64,000 bases of DNA, taken from contig CASGCE010000008.1 of assembly GCA_949299935.1 (NCBI GenBank), positions 1 through 64,000 of the forward strand, written 5' to 3'. Position numbers and translations under genes: made by a program. Under the pieces are notes generated by a model, which was not told where the DNA came from, did not search any database, and saw nothing but the letters and a program-made list of their open reading frames with translations. Below are positions 33,821 to 44,010 of this stretch, piece after piece (the stretch's first letter is position 1; every line of letters begins with the position of its first letter). This stretch comes from an uncultured bacterium. GTDB taxonomy: Bacteria > Cyanobacteriota > Vampirovibrionia > Gastranaerophilales > Gastranaerophilaceae.

Positions 33821-34711
33821 TTATACCACCGCTTTATAAATTATTTTTCTTAAAACTCCACCGTGTTTTTTTAGCTCACTCCTGGCTTCGTCTATACTAA
33901 TCTTCATCATTATTGACACAATCGCGGTTTTTATTTCCCAGTCACATTTTAAAAGTGTCGAAAGTGCATCTGCCAGACTTACTCCAGCAATTTGACCCAC
34001 AATCCGTATTGCACGATCCTTTAATTTTTCATTAACTGCCTTCAGATCAATCATAAAATTTTCATATGTTTTGCCGATTTTAATCATCGAACCTGTGGAA
34101 AGCATATTTAAAATCATCTTTTGAGCAGTACCTGCTTTAAGTCGGCTTGAACCTGCTATAACTTCAGGCCCTACTTCAACGCAGATTACCAATCCGGCTT
34201 CTTCCGCTATTCTCCCGTTTGAGTTGCATGTTATGGCGATAGTCTTGGAACCCGCTTCTTCTGCTTGCTGCAAAACTCCTAAAAGATATTTAGGATTGCC
34301 GCTTGCAGATATGACAACGCATACATCTTTGTCAGTTAAGACTTTTGCATCATTTACACCTAAATCAAAGTTATCCTCGGCACCTTCAACTGAATACAAA
34401 AATGCATCTTTACCTCCGGCAATTTTTCCTTGTACCATATCGTACGGTACGCTAAAAGTCGGTGGGCATTCTGAAGCATCTAATATACCAAGTCTGCCTG
34501 ATGTACCAGCACCAAAATAAAACAATCTCCCACCTTTTAAAAATTGTTTTGCAATTATATCTATCGCTTCTGCTATATGTTCAGCTTCGTCCTCTACCGC
34601 AAGCGCAACAAGTTTGTCCTCCTCGTTCATTTTTTTTACCATATCAACAGTAGACAACAAATCAATGTTTTTGGTATTCTCATTCCTATACTCTGTTATT
34701 GCTTCGCTCAT
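33821..34711 (-). CDS. murQ: N-acetylmuramic acid 6-phosphate etherase
   Basis: 296 residues from ATG 34711, which has AGGGGG upstream; a GTG at 34729 would overlap it. MurQ removes lactate from MurNAc-6-phosphate to give GlcNAc-6-phosphate, recycling cell-wall sugar. A SIS fold is visible, with FYFGAGTSGRLGILDASECPPTF-type sugar-phosphate site (quoted in part: GAGTSGRLG, DASECPPTF), VISASGNP and the VVGPEVIAGSSRLKAGTAQK-type segment (GPEVIAGSSRLKAGT). C-terminal UBA-like helices follow. No murP, nagZ or anmK is nearby, so where the 6-phosphate substrate comes from is open. Confidence 0.95.
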   Translation of the reverse strand: MSEAITEYRNENTKNIDLLSTVDMVKKMNEEDKLVALAVEDEAEHIAEAIDIIAKQFLKGGRLFYFGAGTSGRLGILDASECPPTFSVPYDMVQGKIAGGKDAFLYSVEGAEDNFDLGVNDAKVLTDKDVCVVISASGNPKYLLGVLQQAEEAGSKTIAITCNSNGRIAEEAGLVICVEVGPEVIAGSSRLKAGTAQKMILNMLSTGSMIKIGKTYENFMIDLKAVNEKLKDRAIRIVGQIAGVSLADALSTLLKCDWEIKTAIVSIMMKISIDEARSELKKHGGVLRKIIYKAVV

Positions 34712-34728
34712 TTTTCCCCCTGAAAACA

Positions 34729-35190
34729 CTATATTAATTTAAACAGATTGGCCATTTCTATTGCGGCTTTTGCTGCGTCAGCGCCTTTGTTACCTGCTTT
34801 GGTTCCGGCTCTTTCTATTGCTTGTTCTATGTTATCGGTTGTTAATATCCCGAATATTACAGGAATATTAGTCGCTAATGCTACTTGTCCAATACCTTTT
34901 GAAACCTCTGCACTTACATATTCAAAATGCGGTGTTGAACCTTTTATTATTGCACCTAATGTTATGACTGCATCATATTCACCGCTTCCTGCAAACTTCT
35001 TCGCCGCAAGCGGTATCTCAAATGCACCAGGAACTTTTACTATGTCAATATTAGTTTCCTTTACTCCGTGACGTTTTAGTTCATCTATTGCGCCTGACAA
35101 TAGCTTTGAAACAATAAAATCATTAAATCTTGAGATTATTATACAGAATCTTTCTCCTGCTGTCGTTAGTTGACCTTCGTATGTTTTCAT
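34729..35190 (-). CDS. ribH: 6,7-dimethyl-8-ribityllumazine synthase
   Basis: 153 residues from ATG 35190, with AAAGGAG upstream; an in-frame ATG at 35214 contains that site. Penultimate enzyme of riboflavin synthesis, forming icosahedral or pentameric shells. Conserved parts: [32 protein letters not shown] with the active-site His, and [12 protein letters not shown]. Other rib genes are not in the window. Gap of 17 bp to murQ. Confidence 0.96.
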
Positions 35191-35230
35191 CTTAATATAC
35201 TCCTTTGCATACATTGTACACCACAGAGCC

Positions 35231-35926
35231 CTATTTTACAATAAGTGGTACGAAAATCTTATAAAAAATATATAATGATGCCAGAATAAGCAATATTCCG
35301 CTTATTTTCATTAAAATATCGGAAATTTTGTGAAAATTTTGTTGATTTTTAAGCCCTGATGTCAAAAAGCCGGCAATTATCAGTATAAGTCCTTGACCGA
35401 GTGAAAATAAAAATAACATTATTATTGCATTTATTATGTTGGCTGAAAGTGATGCAAAGGCCATTATTCCAGCCAAAATAGGTGTCGAACACGGTGTTCC
35501 GATTAGCGCAAATACTCCACCTAATATTATCGGATACAAATATGTATGTTGATTTTTGTTTTTGGGCACCTCTTTTATCAGTACCGGAAGCTCAAAATCT
35601 ATTATGCCTATAAGTTTTAAACCCATTATTAACAGTATTGATGCCAGTATTAAAGCAAAATAACTGTTTGATACAAAAACTTTTCCTGTTATTGCACATA
35701 TTATGCCCAGTATTGAAAATATTATAGCTGTCCCCAATACGAAAAAAATCATCTGCAGCAAAGTTTTTGCCGGTTTTGCACTTGAGTATCCTCCAATGTA
35801 GCCTATTATTATCGGAAGCATTGCTAATGAGCACGGTGATATTGAGGCTATTAAACCTCCCAGAAATGATATCGCAAAAAGTATCAGCGTGCTTGTGTTG
35901 GTTGTAAAAATATCACCGTAATCCAT
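35231..35926 (-). CDS. CcdA/DsbD-type transmembrane thiol carrier
   Basis: 231 residues with six hydrophobic helices, the size of CcdA. The two Cys that carry electrons across the membrane sit in the family motifs SPCSLAMLP (first helix) and GTPCSTPIL (fourth). It would take reducing power from cytoplasmic thioredoxin and hand it to the thioredoxin-like protein encoded immediately upstream; the two genes touch by one base. Likely clients are extracytoplasmic cysteine proteins such as the Cys-rich pilins, but that is inference. No cytochrome c maturation genes are present here. Confidence 0.9.
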
Positions 35927-36321
35927 TAATTAAGACCTTTCAGATATGCTTCCAACTCGTCTTTTTCTATGGCACCTTCTATACGTTTTGTCATTTTACC
36001 TGTTGAATCGAGTAATATTACCGTAGGCACAAGGGTTACGTTGTATTTCTCAATCTGTTCATTTGTAAATGAGTTTCGATCTTGTACCGGTATTTCTGTC
36101 AGAATTATTTTACCTTCATATTTTGGAAATATTTCTTTAAAAATTTTGTCCATTTTTTGACAATCCAAACACATTGTTGATGTGAATTTTATCACTTGCG
36201 GAATGCCGCTTTGTTCCGTATTGGTCGTTTGGGCTGTCGTAGCAGCCGATTTTGTAAGTGCCATATAGCATATTATGGGCACTGCTATTATTAGCAATAT
36301 TGTTATCAAATTTTTTCTCAT
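35926..36321 (-). CDS. Membrane-anchored thioredoxin-like protein
   Basis: 131 residues. N-terminal signal anchor (about 5-22), a short Thr/Ala linker, then a thioredoxin fold whose active site is Cys-Leu-Asp-Cys in STMCLDCQKM, with the cis-Pro loop VTLVPTVILL. CxDC sites are found in extracytoplasmic reductases of the DsbD-gamma/TlpA kind. Coupled by one overlapping base to the CcdA-like gene, so the two make one electron path. Ribosome site AAGGAG. It opens the six-gene run; its promoter has an extended -10, TGC-TAATAT at 36343-36351 on the minus strand. Confidence 0.88.
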   Translation of the reverse strand: MRKNLITILLIIAVPIICYMALTKSAATTAQTTNTEQSGIPQVIKFTSTMCLDCQKMDKIFKEIFPKYEGKIILTEIPVQDRNSFTNEQIEKYNVTLVPTVILLDSTGKMTKRIEGAIEKDELEAYLKGLN

Positions 36322-36342
36322 AATTTACTCCTTTTGACTTCT

Positions 36343-36351
36343 ATATTAGCA
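36343..36351 (-). promoter_or_regulatory. Extended -10 promoter of the thioredoxin-to-ricT run
   Basis: Minus-strand TGC-TAATAT; predicted start near 36336 leaves a 15-nt leader with AAGGAG before ATG 36321. The best -35 (TTGATA at 36368-36373) is spaced at 19, so it is weak. Confidence 0.45.
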
Positions 36352-36405
36352 TAAAACAAAAAGAAAATATCAATAACCACATGTGGGTAATGTTTCGGGT
36401 TAATA

Positions 36406-36911
36406 TTACATAAAAACTATTACCGGAACAAAGTACTTTCTTGTACCGACAAGAAAGTACCCCAAGAAACTCTCGACCGGAACTACACTCGCTAATCATT
36501 ACTATAACTCAACCCAAGCTCGCAAACTCGCTTCGCTCAGACAACGCTCGCTCTGTTGTTGTTTTGTTATGTAATGATTGCTCGTTCCGTTAAGGTCGAA
36601 TTGTTTTTAAACTGCGCCTATAAACACGGCAAGGTTTGACTAAACTCCGCGATAGCGGAGTGAGCAATAACTGTAGCCGAAACAAACGTTAGAGGCGTGT
36701 ACTGTTTGAGCGGTAAAAGTATTTGTGGTTAGAAAAGTTGATTATTTTTAAAGCGAGTTTACACGCCTTTATGTTGAGGCGTACAAGTTATTAGTGAACG
36801 CAGCGTGCGGTGGTTTTGTGCAACTTTTGCCACCAAAAGTTGCCGCCGTGCGCGCAGCACTTAACCTCATCTTTTAAATTAAACATGGGTTCAGTAATAG
36901 TTTTTATGTAA
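36406..36911. mobile_element. MITE-like non-coding element with 18-bp terminal inverted repeats
   Basis: About 506 bp with no gene. TTACATAAAAACTATTAC (36406-36423) is repeated exactly in reverse at 36894-36911. The interior is built of further inverted repeats: a 12-bp stem with 4-nt loop (36433-36460), AATCATTAC-type arms at 36494-36508 and 36566-36579, a 7-bp ACTCCGC/GCGGAGT stem (36644-36661), AGGCGTGTA/TACACGCCT arms, and a 10-bp GCAACTTTTG/CAAAAGTTGC stem (36820-36843). It is clearly more GC-rich than the surroundings. No clear target-site duplication was found. A non-autonomous transposon relic or a large structured RNA are both possible. Confidence 0.6.
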
Positions 36912-36960
36912 ACTATCTGCAAAATAAAATCCAGAAATCTATAAGATTTGTAAGCTCTAA

Positions 36961-37122
36961 TTAATCTTCCGGTATATAAAAATCTGCCTTTGCGAGTAAT
37001 TCTCGGGTATGTTCGTAGCAGCAGCTGTTCTTACAGATTTGTTGATATTCTTGAACTATGCTAATCACGTCATCTACACTCATTTTTATTAATCTTCTTT
37101 CACCTTCAATTATTCTTGCCAT
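36961..37122 (-). CDS. 53-residue protein, unknown
   Basis: Starts at ATG 37122, which has AAAGGA upstream; the longer frame from 37155 lacks a site. Begins MARIIEGERRLIKMSVDDV, mostly helical, with three Cys in a CKNSCCYEH cluster. No family recognised. It ends 50 bp from the MITE-like element, with which it has no evident link. Clear ribosome site and coding-like composition support it being real. Confidence 0.55.
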   Translation of the reverse strand: MARIIEGERRLIKMSVDDVISIVQEYQQICKNSCCYEHTRELLAKADFYIPED

Positions 37123-37217
37123 AAAAGTTCCTTTCTTTATTACTTTATACGGCAAAAAATTCCCTAAACCTTTGCAAAATCAGCTATTTTGTTTAAAAAT
37201 CTCTTTTGTAATTTGAC

Positions 37218-38294
37218 TTATAATTTTATGTGTTCATCAAGTTTGAAATAGTCAACAAGTATCAGAATTGATGCGATTTCGTTAAAAAATTTGGTTATTC
37301 TGTTTGGGTCATCCAGCCTCATAAATAAGTTCCCTATTTCAAACAGGTTTTTGTGTGTTGAAATCGCAAACATTATTGTGTTATCAAAAAAAGAACATTT
37401 TGCTTTTTTAGCACCAAAAGCTGTATTCAGGTTATTAAATCTTTCCATAAATGCGGTTGTAATTAAGTATCTTGCTTCCACCTGATCGGATGAATATACA
37501 TTGAATTTCTTTTCGAATACTGGATCTTCAAGGTTAACTTCGTCCATTACTTCACCGTTCCCTTTTGAAAAGAATGTGAAAATCGCAATTATTGCAAGTG
37601 CTACCGCTGCTATAAGCAGGATTTTGAGCTCAGGGAATAAGTATATATATGCAAATAGGGGTAAAATGGAGCTGAAAAACATCCACTTGCCCATTCTGGC
37701 GGTATGCATATCCCATTTTGTAGTAATAATTGTTTTATTACGTATAGTTTTGTTTGATTCAAAATTTATTATGATTCCTTTGAATATTGTCCGTCTGCGA
37801 CGATTTTTGCCGCTGCCTGTTTGGTTTACAAGTTTTGTTTCCGAAATTACAAAGTTAACCCCGTTATATTTACCTTTGAAAGAATCATCGTTGCTTCTTC
37901 TGTTATATCCAGCAAATAATTCGCTTTTCCCCAGTTCTTCATCTGTTATAAAAAATAGTCCATTCCCCCATTCTACATCACCAAATACTTTTGTTAAACT
38001 GTGCATGCATTCTTTTTTTAGCATTTTTATAAAATTTTTATTCATATAATGTGGAATTGCTATTGCAGCCAATCCAAGAATAAGACTCAAAATTTGACAT
38101 ACTATATCTGTTGCATCCTTTAGTGAATAATAAGATACCAATGCAAATGCGGCTATTACAATTACTTCAATAAAAAAACAAAAGCTGAAGCTGCCTTTTC
38201 TTTTTTCTTCAAATTCAATAAGTGTTGGCAGAATTTCTTTATGATATACCTGATAAAATTCGCGTCTGTAATCGTCTATAGTTTTTTCTTTCAT
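37218..38294 (-). CDS. DUF3137-family membrane protein
   Basis: 358 residues. Two membrane helices near the N-terminus (about 33-85) and two in the middle (about 203-243), with soluble regions between and after. The GKYNGVNFVISET-like strand after the first pair and the FEKKFNVYSSDQVEARYLIT segment after the second are characteristic of the DUF3137 family. Such genes often accompany lemA, which is not present. Function unknown. A TATAAT (38302-38307) ends seven bases before the ATG with no ribosome site, so it is likely leaderless. Confidence 0.8.
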   Translation of the reverse strand: MKEKTIDDYRREFYQVYHKEILPTLIEFEEKRKGSFSFCFFIEVIVIAAFALVSYYSLKDATDIVCQILSLILGLAAIAIPHYMNKNFIKMLKKECMHSLTKVFGDVEWGNGLFFITDEELGKSELFAGYNRRSNDDSFKGKYNGVNFVISETKLVNQTGSGKNRRRRTIFKGIIINFESNKTIRNKTIITTKWDMHTARMGKWMFFSSILPLFAYIYLFPELKILLIAAVALAIIAIFTFFSKGNGEVMDEVNLEDPVFEKKFNVYSSDQVEARYLITTAFMERFNNLNTAFGAKKAKCSFFDNTIMFAISTHKNLFEIGNLFMRLDDPNRITKFFNEIASILILVDYFKLDEHIKL

Positions 38295-38301
38295 ATACTA
38301 T

Positions 38302-38307
38302 ATTATA
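38302..38307 (-). promoter_or_regulatory. -10 box of the DUF3137 gene, leaderless start
   Basis: Minus-strand TATAAT, seven bases before ATG 38294; no Shine-Dalgarno sequence. Confidence 0.5.
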
Positions 38308-38344
38308 TAAGATTTTTGTTTTTTGTATATAATGTAAATAAATG

Positions 38345-38375
38345 AAAAAAGCCTCCGGATTTGGAGGCTTTTTTT
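38345..38375 (-). terminator. Intrinsic terminator of the rpo operon
   Basis: AAAAAAGCCTCC (38345-38356) pairs with GGAGGCTTTTTT (38363-38374) around a 6-nt loop; A- and T-runs on both sides make it work in both directions. It lies 18 bp after the rpoC2 stop. Confidence 0.93.
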
Positions 38376-38392
38376 GTTATTTTGAAGTATGA

Positions 38393-41300
38393 TTATTCAT
38401 CTTCGTTATCGTCTAATGTGAAATCAGGAGCGCCGAACATGCCTTCAATTTCTTCCAAAATTGCAGACGGTTTTCTTGCCTGATTTCTTTGTGCTACTGC
38501 ACGTTTTCTTGCTTCGCGTTCTTTTTCTTCGTTGGCGTTAGACAGATGGTGGAAGCCTGTACCTGCAGGTATTAAACGTCCGATAATTACGTTTTCTTTC
38601 AAGCCTCTGAGCATATCTTTCTTACCGTCAACGGCAGCTTCTGTCAGGATTCTTGTTGTTTCCTGGAAGGAGGCTGCTGATATGAAGCTTTCGGTATTCA
38701 AAGAAGCCTTAGTAATACCCAACAACATGTATTCACAAGTTGCGGGGGTTTTACCGTCTTCTTCAACCTTTTTATTTGCTTCTTCAAAAGTTTGAAGCTC
38801 AATTAACTCACCTGGTAAAAGGTCAGTATCGCCTGCGTCAAGGACTCTTACCTTTTTAGTCATCTGACGTACGATAATTTCGATATGTTTGTCTGCGATT
38901 TCTACACCTTGTGAACGGTATACACGTTGTACTTCGTCAACCAAGTATTGTTGTGCTGCCTCAACTCCGCAAAGTCTTATAACGTCATGCGGGTTCAACG
39001 GACCGCTTGTCAGTGGCTGTCCTTTTGTTATTTTCTGCTTGTCGTGGACTATAATATTTGCGTCGATTGCATATTTTATTTCCACTCTGCCGTTATCATT
39101 TACCAGGTATAATCTTGGTAAATCTTCATCGGTTTCAATTTCAGCAAAACCGTCTTCTTCGGCAAGAATTGCACAATCTTTAGGCTTACGGCCTTCAAGA
39201 AGCTCCTCAACCCTTGGCAAACCTTGTACGATGTCGCCGGTTTTTTGTCTTTCAAATACCAATGTAGCAAGCATATCACCTCGAAGTACCAATGCACCTG
39301 ATTCTACTTGTAGCATTGTACCAGGGCTGATTAGGTAGGGTCTTCCGGTTCTCACAACAATTTCGCCTTTATTTACGGCCACTACCTGACCCGATACAGG
39401 TGAGGTTTCTCCGCTTGATGAAATTATTGAGTCGGTTTTTATAAAATTACCTTTTTTCACGCTTGCACTTGATTTAATTTTAATAACTTCCTCATAATTT
39501 TTACTTGTTAACAAAAGGCGTCTGTTATCTGTTTTATTTTCATTAATTGATGCCACACCTTCATTTATTGCTAAGACTTGTGTTTTTGCAATAGGAGTTT
39601 TAGGTTCAATTGTCTGACCGTCTTTAACAAGCAATTCTGTCTGAAGTGCTGATAAAAGCTTAGAATTACCTTCAAATTCTCGGCGGACAATCAGGTTTTC
39701 AAGAACTACAATTCTCAAATTACCTTTTTCATCCAATTCTACCATACCTTTTAAGTGTGATAAGTAACCTTGCATTTGAAGTACAAGACTTGTTCTTGTA
39801 ATTGTCGAACCGTCGAGATTTCTTACTCTTGCGCCATCTTTGTATTGAAGTTGAGTTACAGGGACTATATCTATTAACTCATCAGTTGTATTAAATTTAA
39901 TAGAAACGTCCTTTTGTTGGACATCCAATACCTGTACAGGTCTTACCAAGATTTGTATAGGCTGATTAGAGATATTATCTTCATCCAAAGTGAGATTTGC
40001 ATCAAGTTCTTCGTCTAAATCATCTATTTCTAGCTCGTCCAAAGATGAATCCATAATGGTCACGATGGAAGTTTCTTTAGCCTTGATACCGTCAGCAATT
40101 AAGGTACCCTTTTTAACTATTTCGCCTTCATCCACTTTTAATTCCGAAACGCTTGGTAAAGTATGAATTTGTCCGGGTCTTACGGTAATTTCGTGGATTA
40201 TATCGTTGTACTCTTTGAATTCAACGATACCGTCGATGTGGCAATAAACATCTTTTACGACCTCAGTACCGGCTGTAACGTATGTTCCGTTGTCTACCAT
40301 TTTTAATGAACTATCTTTTGAAATTTGGTGGATTTCTTCGGGAATAAATACAACTTTGCCGGGCTTAGTAATAATCTGATTTTCATCAACTTCAACATCA
40401 ACGTATCTGATTTCACCTGAGCTTGTAACGGAGCATTCTTCATCCAAAAGCTCTGCTATAATCATCCCGTTTTCTACCGTTGTATCCACGGGTGCTTTTA
40501 CTATGTATTTTTCACCAGTTTTCTTTACTGTCCATAATTGTTCTTTTTTAGTTTGTTCAAAAGTTGCATTTTCGGGCATCAAGGAAGCTATTACGATTGT
40601 AATTTCCTTACCTTGGACTATTTTTTTAATTTTTTTGCCTTCAAAATTAACATTTTCGATAACCAAATCTTCACCAAATCGGACTTCTCCTCCGTGTTCA
40701 GAAATAGTCAAAGTTTCAGCAAGTTTTTCACCTTCCTTAATCTTTTGGCCATCTTTTACGATTACTTTAGAGCCGCCCGGCAGGTTATAGACATCGCCTC
40801 CAAGAACCCAGATTACGCCTTGTTTATTTGTAGTTCTTGAGATATTGCCTTGTCTGTCTTTCTTTTCATCAGCTACAAAATCTTCATAGATAACTTCTCC
40901 GCTTAAGTCTGCGTTGATATCTTTAGTAGCTTTTTCAGTTAAACGTGAACCGTCGCCTTGTGAGGTTGGTTCATATGCAGCCAGAGTATATCCTTTTTCG
41001 ACCTTCATACCGTTTGTAAAGAACACGGTTGAGCCTGCAGGGATGTGATATTTTTCTGTTCTTTTTGAACCTTTAACTTCAATATCGGCTTCGTAATTTG
41101 CGACATTAACGATATCTCCGTGACGTGTTCTTAATTCTCTTGTTTTAACATTAGATATAACTTCGCCGGCAGATTTTGCATCAACGTGTTTCATAGCGCC
41201 TGAACCTTTGAATACACCACCTGTGTGGAATGTTCTCATTGTAAGCTGTGTACCCGGTTCACCGATTGACTGTGCGGCAATAATACCGATAGCTTCACCT

Positions 41301-42253
41301 ACGTCAACGAGTTTTTGGGTAGTCATTGCCCATCCGTAGCATTTTTGGCAGATACCGTATTCAAGTCCGCAGGTCAAGCCTGATCTGACTTTTAGTTCTT
41401 GCAAGTTCAAATGTGCTATTTTTTTGATATCCTCACGATTTAGTGTTGTACCTGACTTAACAAGTACTGTTCCGTCTTTATCTTTAATATCCTCGGCTAT
41501 TGTTCTTCCTAGTAACCTATCAATTAATGGTACAATAACTATATCTCCGTCCACGATAGGTTTCATGTTAATTGATTTTTTCGTATGACAGTCATCTGCT
41601 CTGATTATAACGTCTTGAGCAACGTCCACCAGACGTCTTGTTAAATATCCTGAATCGGCTGTTTTCAAAGCCGTATCTACCAAACCTTTACGTGCACCGT
41701 ATGAGGAAATAATATATTCTGTTACGGATAAGCCCTCTTTAAAGTTTGATTTGATAGGCAAGTCGATAATTTGCCCCTGTGCATCAGCCATTAAACCACG
41801 CATACCAACCAATTGTGATACCTGTGATAAGTTACCTCTGGCACCTGAAAATGCCATCATGTAAACCGGATTTAATTTATCAAAATTTTCTACCACCTGT
41901 TCAGTTAATTTTGCGGTTGTTTCCGACCAGGTGTCGATAACTTTTGTATATCTTTCTACTTCAGTAATTTCACCTTTAAGGTATCTGTTTGTTGATTGTT
42001 CAATTTCTTTTTCAGCTTCTTGCAAAAGATCTTTTTTTGCAGGAGGCACTTGCAAATCTGCTATCGAAATAGTTGTTCCTGATTTGGTTGCATATTTATA
42101 ACCCAAGTTTTTCAAAGCGTTTGCAAGTTCTGCTGTTTTTGCTCCACCGTATTCCAAATACATTTGCGCAAGCAAATTGTTTAATCCTTTTTTATCCATT
42201 TGTTTGTTAATGTATTCGGGTGTCTTTTTTTCATGAATGTATGTTGTTTCCAT
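38393..42253 (-). CDS. rpoC2: RNA polymerase beta' subunit, C-terminal part (RpoC2)
   Basis: 1286 residues from ATG 42253 (AAGGG upstream). Corresponds to the C-terminal half of beta' in other bacteria. The bridge-helix/trigger-loop region GIIAAQSIGEPGTQLTMRTFHTGG is near residue 325, but the other trigger-loop half, QGLPRVEELLEGRKP, comes only near residue 1005: some 650 residues of repeated beta-barrel-like units (SI3 insertion) lie between. A split beta' with a giant SI3 is a hallmark of Cyanobacteria and their non-photosynthetic sisters. Zinc cysteines near residues 215-310 (DDCHTKK, CGLEYGICQKCYG) are intact. Last gene of rpoB-rpoC1-rpoC2. Confidence 0.97.
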   Translation of the reverse strand: METTYIHEKKTPEYINKQMDKKGLNNLLAQMYLEYGGAKTAELANALKNLGYKYATKSGTTISIADLQVPPAKKDLLQEAEKEIEQSTNRYLKGEITEVERYTKVIDTWSETTAKLTEQVVENFDKLNPVYMMAFSGARGNLSQVSQLVGMRGLMADAQGQIIDLPIKSNFKEGLSVTEYIISSYGARKGLVDTALKTADSGYLTRRLVDVAQDVIIRADDCHTKKSINMKPIVDGDIVIVPLIDRLLGRTIAEDIKDKDGTVLVKSGTTLNREDIKKIAHLNLQELKVRSGLTCGLEYGICQKCYGWAMTTQKLVDVGEAIGIIAAQSIGEPGTQLTMRTFHTGGVFKGSGAMKHVDAKSAGEVISNVKTRELRTRHGDIVNVANYEADIEVKGSKRTEKYHIPAGSTVFFTNGMKVEKGYTLAAYEPTSQGDGSRLTEKATKDINADLSGEVIYEDFVADEKKDRQGNISRTTNKQGVIWVLGGDVYNLPGGSKVIVKDGQKIKEGEKLAETLTISEHGGEVRFGEDLVIENVNFEGKKIKKIVQGKEITIVIASLMPENATFEQTKKEQLWTVKKTGEKYIVKAPVDTTVENGMIIAELLDEECSVTSSGEIRYVDVEVDENQIITKPGKVVFIPEEIHQISKDSSLKMVDNGTYVTAGTEVVKDVYCHIDGIVEFKEYNDIIHEITVRPGQIHTLPSVSELKVDEGEIVKKGTLIADGIKAKETSIVTIMDSSLDELEIDDLDEELDANLTLDEDNISNQPIQILVRPVQVLDVQQKDVSIKFNTTDELIDIVPVTQLQYKDGARVRNLDGSTITRTSLVLQMQGYLSHLKGMVELDEKGNLRIVVLENLIVRREFEGNSKLLSALQTELLVKDGQTIEPKTPIAKTQVLAINEGVASINENKTDNRRLLLTSKNYEEVIKIKSSASVKKGNFIKTDSIISSSGETSPVSGQVVAVNKGEIVVRTGRPYLISPGTMLQVESGALVLRGDMLATLVFERQKTGDIVQGLPRVEELLEGRKPKDCAILAEEDGFAEIETDEDLPRLYLVNDNGRVEIKYAIDANIIVHDKQKITKGQPLTSGPLNPHDVIRLCGVEAAQQYLVDEVQRVYRSQGVEIADKHIEIIVRQMTKKVRVLDAGDTDLLPGELIELQTFEEANKKVEEDGKTPATCEYMLLGITKASLNTESFISAASFQETTRILTEAAVDGKKDMLRGLKENVIIGRLIPAGTGFHHLSNANEEKEREARKRAVAQRNQARKPSAILEEIEGMFGAPDFTLDDNEDE

Positions 42254-42300
42254 TATATATTCCCTTTTTGTTATTTTATTACAAATCAATAAAACTATAT

Positions 42301-44010
42301 TTAAGCCAGAGCATTTTTAACTGTTTCGTTAAAAATTATTCTTCCGACTGTAGTTTCAATTCTTTCACCTTTGTCATTTCTTACAACTATCTTATCGTGT
42401 AAATCAATTACACCGACTTCAAGAGCCGAAATTGCATCTTGGAAGTTGTAGAAGTAACCTTTAGGTTCTTGTTCAGGATTTTTCAAGATAGTCAGGTAAT
42501 ACATACCAAGTACCATATCTTGAGAAGGTGTAATAATAGGCTTTCCGTTTGCCGGAGCCAGAATGTTGTTTGTAGCAAGCATTAACATTCTTGCTTCTGT
42601 CTGAGCTTCAATTGAAAGCGGTACGTGAACAGCCATTTGGTCGCCGTCAAAGTCAGCGTTAAATGCTGTACACACCAATGGGTGCAATTGAATTGCTCTG
42701 CCTTCAACAAGTTTAGGTTCAAATGCCTGAATACCTAATCTGTGCAAGGTTGGAGCACGGTTCAATAATACCGGGTGCCCGTCAATTACCTCTTCTAATA
42801 TATCCCAAACTATCGCTTCGGAACGTTCAATTTTCTTTTTAGCCGATTTAATGTTTTGAACATATCCTCTTTCGATAAGTTTATTGACTACAAATGGTTT
42901 AAACAATTCAATAGCCATTTCTTTTGGCAAACCGCATTGATTCAAGCTCAATTGCGGACCTACTACGATAACCGAACGACCTGAGTAGTCAACACGTTTA
43001 CCGAGCAAGTTTTGTCTGAAACGACCTTGTTTACCTTCAATGATATTTGATAATGATTTTAATGCACGGTTGTTAGGACCAACAACGGTTCTTCCTCTGC
43101 GACCGTTATCAATCAATGCATCAACTGCTTCTTGCAGCATACGTTTTTCGTTTCTTACGATTATTTCAGGAGCTCCCATTTCCAAAAGTCTTTGCAAACG
43201 GTTGTTTCTGTTAATTACGCGTCTGTATAAATCATTCAAATCCGATGTCGCAAAACGTCCGCCATCTAACTGTACCATCGGTCTTAAATCCGGTGGTGTT
43301 ACAGGTAATACATCCATTATCATCCAGGTCGGATCCGTTTCGGATGATATTAGTGCATCAAGCAATCTTAATCGTTTAATCAGTTTGCTTTTTCTCTGTA
43401 CTGATGTTATGTTGCCTGCTAATTCTGTTCTTATTTCTTCAGCCAATTCGTTTATGTTAATTTCTGACAACAATTCTTTTATGGCCTCTGCACCGATACC
43501 TACTTTTAATTCGGTTTCTTCATTTTCGGTGATGTAATCTTCGTATTCTTCTTCACCCAGCAATTGCAATTTCTTAAATGGGCTTTCTCCGGGTTCTATT
43601 ACTACGTAGTTGTTGAAGTAAATTACCTGTTCCAGATCTTTCAAAGTCATATCCAACAGTAAACCAAGGTATGATGGAATACCTTTTAAAAACCAAATAT
43701 GTGATACCGGAGCCGCGAGTTTGATATGTCCCATTCTGTGACGACGGACTTTTGAATCCGTAACTTCAACACCGCAGCGTTCGCAGATAATGCCTTTGTG
43801 TCTTACTCTTTTATATTTACCGCAATAGCATTCCCAATCCTTTGTCGGTCCGAAAATTCTTTCGCAGAACAGACCGTCTCTTTCAGGCTTCAAGGTTCGG
43901 TAATTTATTGTTTCCGGTTTTGTTACTTCACCGTAGGACCATTTCAAAATCCTTTCCGGTGAAGCTATACTTATTCGTATATAGTCAAAATAATCTATGC
44001 TTGTTGACAT
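42301..44010 (-). CDS. rpoC1: RNA polymerase beta' subunit, N-terminal part (RpoC1/gamma)
   Basis: 569 residues. Holds the N-terminal zinc finger ([20 protein letters not shown]), the clamp helices and the active-site loop [15 protein letters not shown] (near residue 450), whose three Asp bind the catalytic magnesium. Ends shortly after the funnel start, where beta' is cut in Cyanobacteria. The reading frame closes with a clean TAA and rpoC2 has its own start 47 bp on with a ribosome site, so this is a true gene split, not a frameshift. Ribosome site AAGGAG before ATG 44010. Confidence 0.98.

Follow-up and report, generated by a model that had tools for sequence, protein, structure and literature searches.

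Dispersed gene-less elements with inverted dif-like ends in gut Gastranaerophilales probably behave as invertible dif-module-like units

The closest described systems to the element reported here are the dif modules of Acinetobacter. In these modules, two inverse 11-6-11 pdif sites bound a discrete segment, the spacer varies between sites while being identical, or nearly so, at recombining sites, and the modules are inverted in place and reshuffled (PMC13141974, PMC6449649). Experiments have recorded inversion between inverse pdif sites whose six-base spacers are identical (PMC13141974). Known modules sit mostly on plasmids and as a rule contain genes, though an ORF-less one is described (PMC13141974). 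Chromosomal dif has a 28-bp form and occurs once per chromosome, and in Bacillus subtilis it reads ACTTCCTAGAA-TATATA-TTATGTAAACT (PMC3025954). Gut-bacterial invertible promoters, or invertons, are intergenic invertible DNA between inverted repeats (PMC11892184). MITEs, BIMEs and BOX-type mosaic repeats are dispersed mosaics of small size, with inverted ends and no genes.

Here, we describe an element in a window of 64,000 nt, which is the whole stretch of DNA analysed and lies on contig C8 of the 1.68-Mb genome of an uncultured Gastranaerophilaceae bacterium. The element is a member of a large dispersed gene-less family in gut Gastranaerophilales, which are melainabacterial relatives of Cyanobacteria. 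Inverted site pairs, six-base spacers and inversion follow the logic of dif modules, and we therefore read it as an invertible dif-module-like element. We regard it as probable that the family consists of gene-less, arm-swapping, invertible chromosomal elements of dif-module design, worked by a Xer-type tyrosine recombinase. Under the Acinetobacter naming, the internal position of the XerC-type arms would make the present element a “C module” (PMC13141974, PMC6449649). Unlike the Acinetobacter modules, the family is chromosomal, gene-less and present in many copies, its members are two-armed mosaics of hairpin modules in another phylum, and we infer Xer action. It differs from chromosomal dif in forming inverted pairs at many loci, from invertons (PMC11892184) in having conserved arm families together with hypervariable centres that come in pairs, and from MITEs, BIMEs and BOX-type repeats in having ends with paired variable centres and interiors that are inverted and exchanged at fixed sites. 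We found no such element in the open-access literature on Melainabacteria and Gastranaerophilales, a body of text that leaves out most subscription papers. The family appears to put an established DNA-recombination system to a new use.

The window element and its family

The element (36406–36911, 506 nt) is intergenic. On one side lies a thioredoxin-like gene (PF00085; 35929–36321, minus strand), whose start codon is 85 bp from the element and which is followed by a DsbD-type membrane gene. On the other side is a conserved 56-aa ORF (36964–37131, minus strand), which has no assigned function and no Pfam family; its orthologue adjoins the element in other genera. An initial annotation had described a GC-richer, ORF-free block with exact 18-bp inverted ends and several internal inverted repeats, and these features were borne out. 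The ends (36406–36423 and 36894–36911) extend to a 29-nt pair that is 83% complementary, no ORF of at least 60 aa lies inside, and the G+C content is 41–45% in windows inside the element versus 29–38% around it. Ten inverted pairs were found in 36300–37020, including the perfect 12-bp stem with a 4-nt loop (36433–36444/36449–36460) that had been singled out, and a perfect 10-bp stem at 36820–36843. The predicted RNA fold of the 506 nt reaches −174.8 kcal/mol (z = −7.9), and none of 100 shuffled sequences folded as low.

The terminal repeats lie in two inverted 28-bp dif-like sites. The left site (36403–36430, minus strand) is composed of an outer XerD-type arm (36403–36413), a six-base centre (36414–36419) and an inner XerC-type arm (36420–36430). 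The right site (36887–36914, plus strand) is composed of an inner XerC-type arm (36887–36897), a centre (36898–36903) and an outer XerD-type arm (36904–36914). The left centre is AAACTA, and that of the right site is identical; in their inverse orientation, with 11-bp arms around a 6-bp centre, the two sites have the build of a pdif pair. Compared with B. subtilis dif, the outer arms are identical at 9/11 (left) and 11/11 (right) positions, whereas the inner arms match poorly (6/11 and 4/11) and carry GTAA in place of ATAA at both ends. Because of these poor inner arms, the window copy may be inactive.

Between the sites, module comparison identified two arms that point inward, a cap and core of one type (A, 36433–36510, and a, 36540–36600; both plus strand) and those of another (b, 36647–36714, and B, 36778–36860; both minus strand), so that the arm make-up is a + b. 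Cap A includes the 12-bp hairpin (36433–36460) and cap B the hairpin at 36820–36843. The remnant of a central hairpin, M, lies between them (36614–36630, plus strand) and matches 74% of M, which in other copies has the form CCGCGCC...GGCGCGG.

Relatives were detectable by sequence in 21 of 99 related genomes, its own included. A 24-base hairpin of the element matched 99 stretches of a species-genome collection, and the match titles shown were those of Candidatus Gastranaerophilales, Melainabacteria or unassigned gut or rumen bacteria. The end motif TACATAAAAACTATTAT, with at most one mismatch, was found in 13 of 16 congeneric genomes, with 170 occurrences in total and up to 34 in one genome; a reversed control pattern occurred 4 times. 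The initial annotation had noted that the window holds no second copy. This extends to the whole genome, which contains one full copy and two partial matches (C17:23658-23766, 81%; C34:77267-77336, 84%).

Across 44 end-to-end copies, a central hairpin lies between two arms, which an end site bounds on either side, and the modules point inward from both sides in 40 copies. At least four arm types were distinguished (cores a, b, c and d; caps A, B, C and D). Cores of the same type were never paired in the 36 copies typed on both arms (8 of the 44 were set aside), compared with 10.5 expected at random, and zero was not reached in 20,000 shuffles; because related copies do not count as independent, we take the result as a strong tendency and not as an exact probability. 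Like arms are presumably missing because they would form a long perfect palindrome. Some copies have an extra outer arm, E, and an additional end site; we also looked for a palindromic host element made of E arms with an empty centre and found none. Simple ORF-based calls, made independently of annotation, placed the 44 copies between tandem (25), convergent (10) and divergent (9) genes. In four copies (L092, L108, L118 and L091), the left border directly follows an apparent terminator hairpin and T run.

Read outward, the family consensus of the end sites is AATTCCGATAA-TAGTTT-TTATGTAAAAA, which corresponds to a XerC-like arm, a six-base centre and a XerD-like arm. The XerD-type arm is better conserved than the XerC-type arm, and the inner ATAA/TTAT is nearly invariant, the same pattern of arm conservation as that described for dif in PMC2731167. 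On a scale of 11, the arms of the family ends scored 7.71 and 8.51 versus 6.13 and 6.42 for 380 other ATAA-N6-TTAT 28-mers, and at least 17 of 22 was scored by 42 of 102 ends versus 17 of the 380. Searching the genus with the proteobacterial form of dif gave no more matches than the reversed control in most genomes and no clear chromosomal dif; two exact-looking dif sites fall in a conserved stretch that resembles coding sequence.

Paired centres, arm exchange and inversion

The ends have the form CATAA-N6-TTAT and, across genera, CATAA-NNNNT[A/G]-TTA. When ATAA-N6-TTAT was searched with N6 free, 22 of 45 candidate pairs in inverted orientation had identical N6 (unfiltered pairs 250–1000 bp apart, excluding those with AAACTA), as opposed to none in direct orientation; 5000 shuffles gave a mean of 1.56 and a maximum of 8. 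The other 23 candidates differ at two or more positions of N6, with no single-base differences, and are thus probably not real pairs. Stricter end patterns gave identical centres in 27/28 and 19/19 pairs. Column by column, after one pair (L294 2181) had been dropped, the centre positions match in 25–26 of 27 pairs versus 9–13 expected. Positions 15 and 16, just inside the centre, match in 17 and 18 of the 27 (8.2 and 11.1 expected), and bases flanking the site on the outside match between ends at a level near chance.

The signal emerges once other genera and other centres are included. AAACTA pairs were identical in 24 of 28 cases, with no excess over shuffles, and are uninformative on covariation; within the genus of the window alone, the 2 shared deviations found were not significant (shuffles averaged 0.67, and 684 of 5000 reached that count). 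A single genome (contigs CALUPW) contains AGATTG, AATATG and ATTTTG centres, each of them paired. At the window locus, seven copies from seven genomes were readable at both ends and carried five different centres, with 7/7 identical between their ends, which indicates that the centres at one locus change together.

Comparison of flanks revealed that many copies occupy the identical genomic place in different species. At one site common to G011 and G012 (L094 and L129; flanks 90 and 99% identical), the left arm is shared and the right arms differ. The window locus holds an element in G000 (the window's own genome), G015 and G002, with different interiors. These comparisons show arm mosaicism at fixed sites, as read from sequence. 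Among 24 same-site pairs oriented by their flanks, the interior was collinear in 10, inverted in 10 and without a clear call in 4; loci lacking both flanks were left out, and the pairs are not independent of each other. A second set of 10 pairs, mostly from other genera, contained 6 inverted and 4 collinear cases, two of the pairs being weak matches that involve the window locus.

The clearest case is L086 (G011) versus L125 (G012), in which the flanks are collinear and ~98% identical and the interior is inverted exactly between the ends. The inverted alignment gives 98.0% identity over 356 aligned bases with 52 gap columns, versus 88.5% over 262 bases with 240 gap columns when the interiors are aligned as the flanks lie. 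The window element is likewise inverted relative to that of G015 at the same site (82% over 83 bp). Genome comparisons between species thus show element interiors inverted in place, and separate insertions into a single site, in either orientation, could give the appearance of some of these inversions.

Proposed recombination and alternative explanations

In the mechanism that we propose, the terminal inverted repeats would be two inverted dif-like sites, each with its XerC-type arm inside, the centre, and its XerD-type arm outside. Recombination from site to site would flip the interior in place. Copies with a common centre could recombine with each other and, by exchange at the central hairpin as well, would re-mix their arms. 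The six-base centre probably represents the strand-exchange region; as strand exchange needs the same six bases, centres would stay identical within a pair and drift between pairs. The enzyme would be of the Xer type, most likely the host XerC/XerD, and flipping may still be ongoing. None of ten selected window proteins of 237–334 aa is a tyrosine recombinase.

A more far-reaching version, which we put forward tentatively, is that the elements form a chromosome-wide, gene-less, two-armed invertible set in which the private six-base centres of the dif-like sites serve as addresses. Each element would flip on its own, arms would pass between elements with a common centre, and over evolution the two ends of a locus would change their centre together.

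The initial annotation had suggested a MITE-like transposon. Dispersal, the lack of genes, intact inverted ends, many relatives elsewhere and a filled/empty site polymorphism agree with that label; what is not supported is mobilisation of the DDE-transposase type, and the ends appear to act as an inverted pair of tyrosine-recombinase sites, with paired centres and exact in-place inversion. An ordinary MITE, with ends that are transposase-binding repeats, a DDE transposase (absent or lost) that inserted it at TA, and orientation differences arising from independent insertions at favoured sites, is an unlikely explanation. It would account for the many sites per genome, the one clear filled/empty polymorphism and the TA that borders nearly all copies on both sides, preceded by TT at 76 of 88 ends. 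However, a MITE gives no reason to expect hypervariable centres that agree between the two ends of an element but differ among the copies in a single genome, and the L086/L125 pair has exact borders in common with an interior that is 98% identical yet inverted; DDE_3 was absent from 11/11 genomes and DDE_Tnp_1 from 16/16 (incomplete assemblies), arguing against both IS630-type DDE_3 and DDE_Tnp_1 enzymes as mobilisers, and no target duplication was proved. Y1/RAYT was likewise rejected as a mobiliser: Y1_Tnp occurs in 7 of 16 genomes and is missing from the element-rich G002 and G009. None of nine Y1_Tnp hits has paired element ends around it, with one lone end-like match in L348.

Still less probable is that the short inverted repeats undergo homologous recombination or gene conversion, which would flip the interior and homogenise the ends with no dedicated recombinase. 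Perfect repeats of 17–33 bp could pair, and some matching does extend just inside the centre. Such repeats are short for RecA-dependent recombination, the sites carry dif-like arms, and matching between the ends is concentrated in six bases between invariant arms and falls near chance outside the site. Least probable of all is a structured RNA or base-paired stem, in which the complementary ends would form the closing stem of a large fold in RNA or single-stranded DNA. The very strong fold, with the ends as its basal stem, and the complementary changes at both ends would fit; pairing, however, would act along the whole stem and not mainly on a six-base centre, and a fold explains neither the swapped arms nor whole interiors inverted at fixed sites. 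No Rfam match came near the gathering score in 34000–39000 of the window (best, ssnA, 18.4 bits versus 37.3). The large noncoding RNA considered in the initial annotation is not needed to explain the element.

At site L103, the element is present in G015 and absent from G011 and G009, where the empty site reads GAGATTTRGCTTTG. This empty sequence is not dif-like, and arrival at new sites therefore needs another step, perhaps transposition. The filled copies compared with the empty site reveal no clean repeat, despite TA at both borders, in line with the earlier remark that no target duplication was found; none was provable at the filled/empty sites compared. Another candidate for a virgin site (L053/L111 in G008) was rejected since it resembles a deletion scar. 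The proposed search for copies with intact ends and empty sites thus yielded many copies and an orthologous site occupied in one species but empty in two others. Nor is the window locus occupied in all relatives without sign of mobility, the pattern that the initial annotation had named as counter-evidence: it is filled in some and empty or rebuilt in others.

If the far-reaching version above is true, the melainabacterial branch would have its first described dif-like sites, and uncultured gut bacteria would possess a genome-wide, orientation-dependent layer of intergenic variation. Acinetobacter dif modules have been described as plasmid gene carriers, and a chromosomal, gene-less, high-copy version in another phylum would widen the role of Xer-type recombination. 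Because dif prediction failed in 5/5 Cyanobacteria (PMC3025954), the sites would provide a handle on Xer specificity in this lineage. By their centre identity, active inverted site pairs can be tested for in any genome from sequence alone. Flipping and arm exchange before housekeeping genes may create hidden expression variants in gut bacteria yet to be grown.

Decayed copies and neighbouring features

Two decayed copies were observed in the genome of the window (G000:C33:60740-60990 and G000:C17:23523-23915), and the same sites in G015 carry fuller copies, suggesting that the genome may be losing the family. Several C/D caps, including L086:1533-1593 and 1810-1879, resemble by eye intrastrand-triplex motifs, with a pyrimidine stem, a purine stem and a mirrored purine tract. 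Intrastrand-triplex repeats of this kind are treated in PMC4666352; as an explanation of the family, these motifs would leave the paired centres and the inversion unexplained.

An IMG/VR contig of 12.5 kb (L336), phage-like by eye with large and structural phage-type genes, contains an A-type arm and a D-like hairpin (1370–1740) between different ends, a 20-nt inverted pair (1338–1357/1828–1847, 95%) that is not dif-like. Arms can therefore occur inside other ends. A RAYT-type Y1 transposase gene with its own palindromic repeats, unlinked to the elements, was found at L347:363-905 (G011:C9).

Elsewhere in the window, the Phe leader model is weakly matched on both strands at 38301–38404 (35.6 and 32.1 bits against a gathering score of 55), between a DUF3137 gene and rpoC2. 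The RNA polymerase beta-prime subunit is encoded at 38393–44010 by two ORFs of 569 and 1298 aa, and such a split is a trait of Cyanobacteria.
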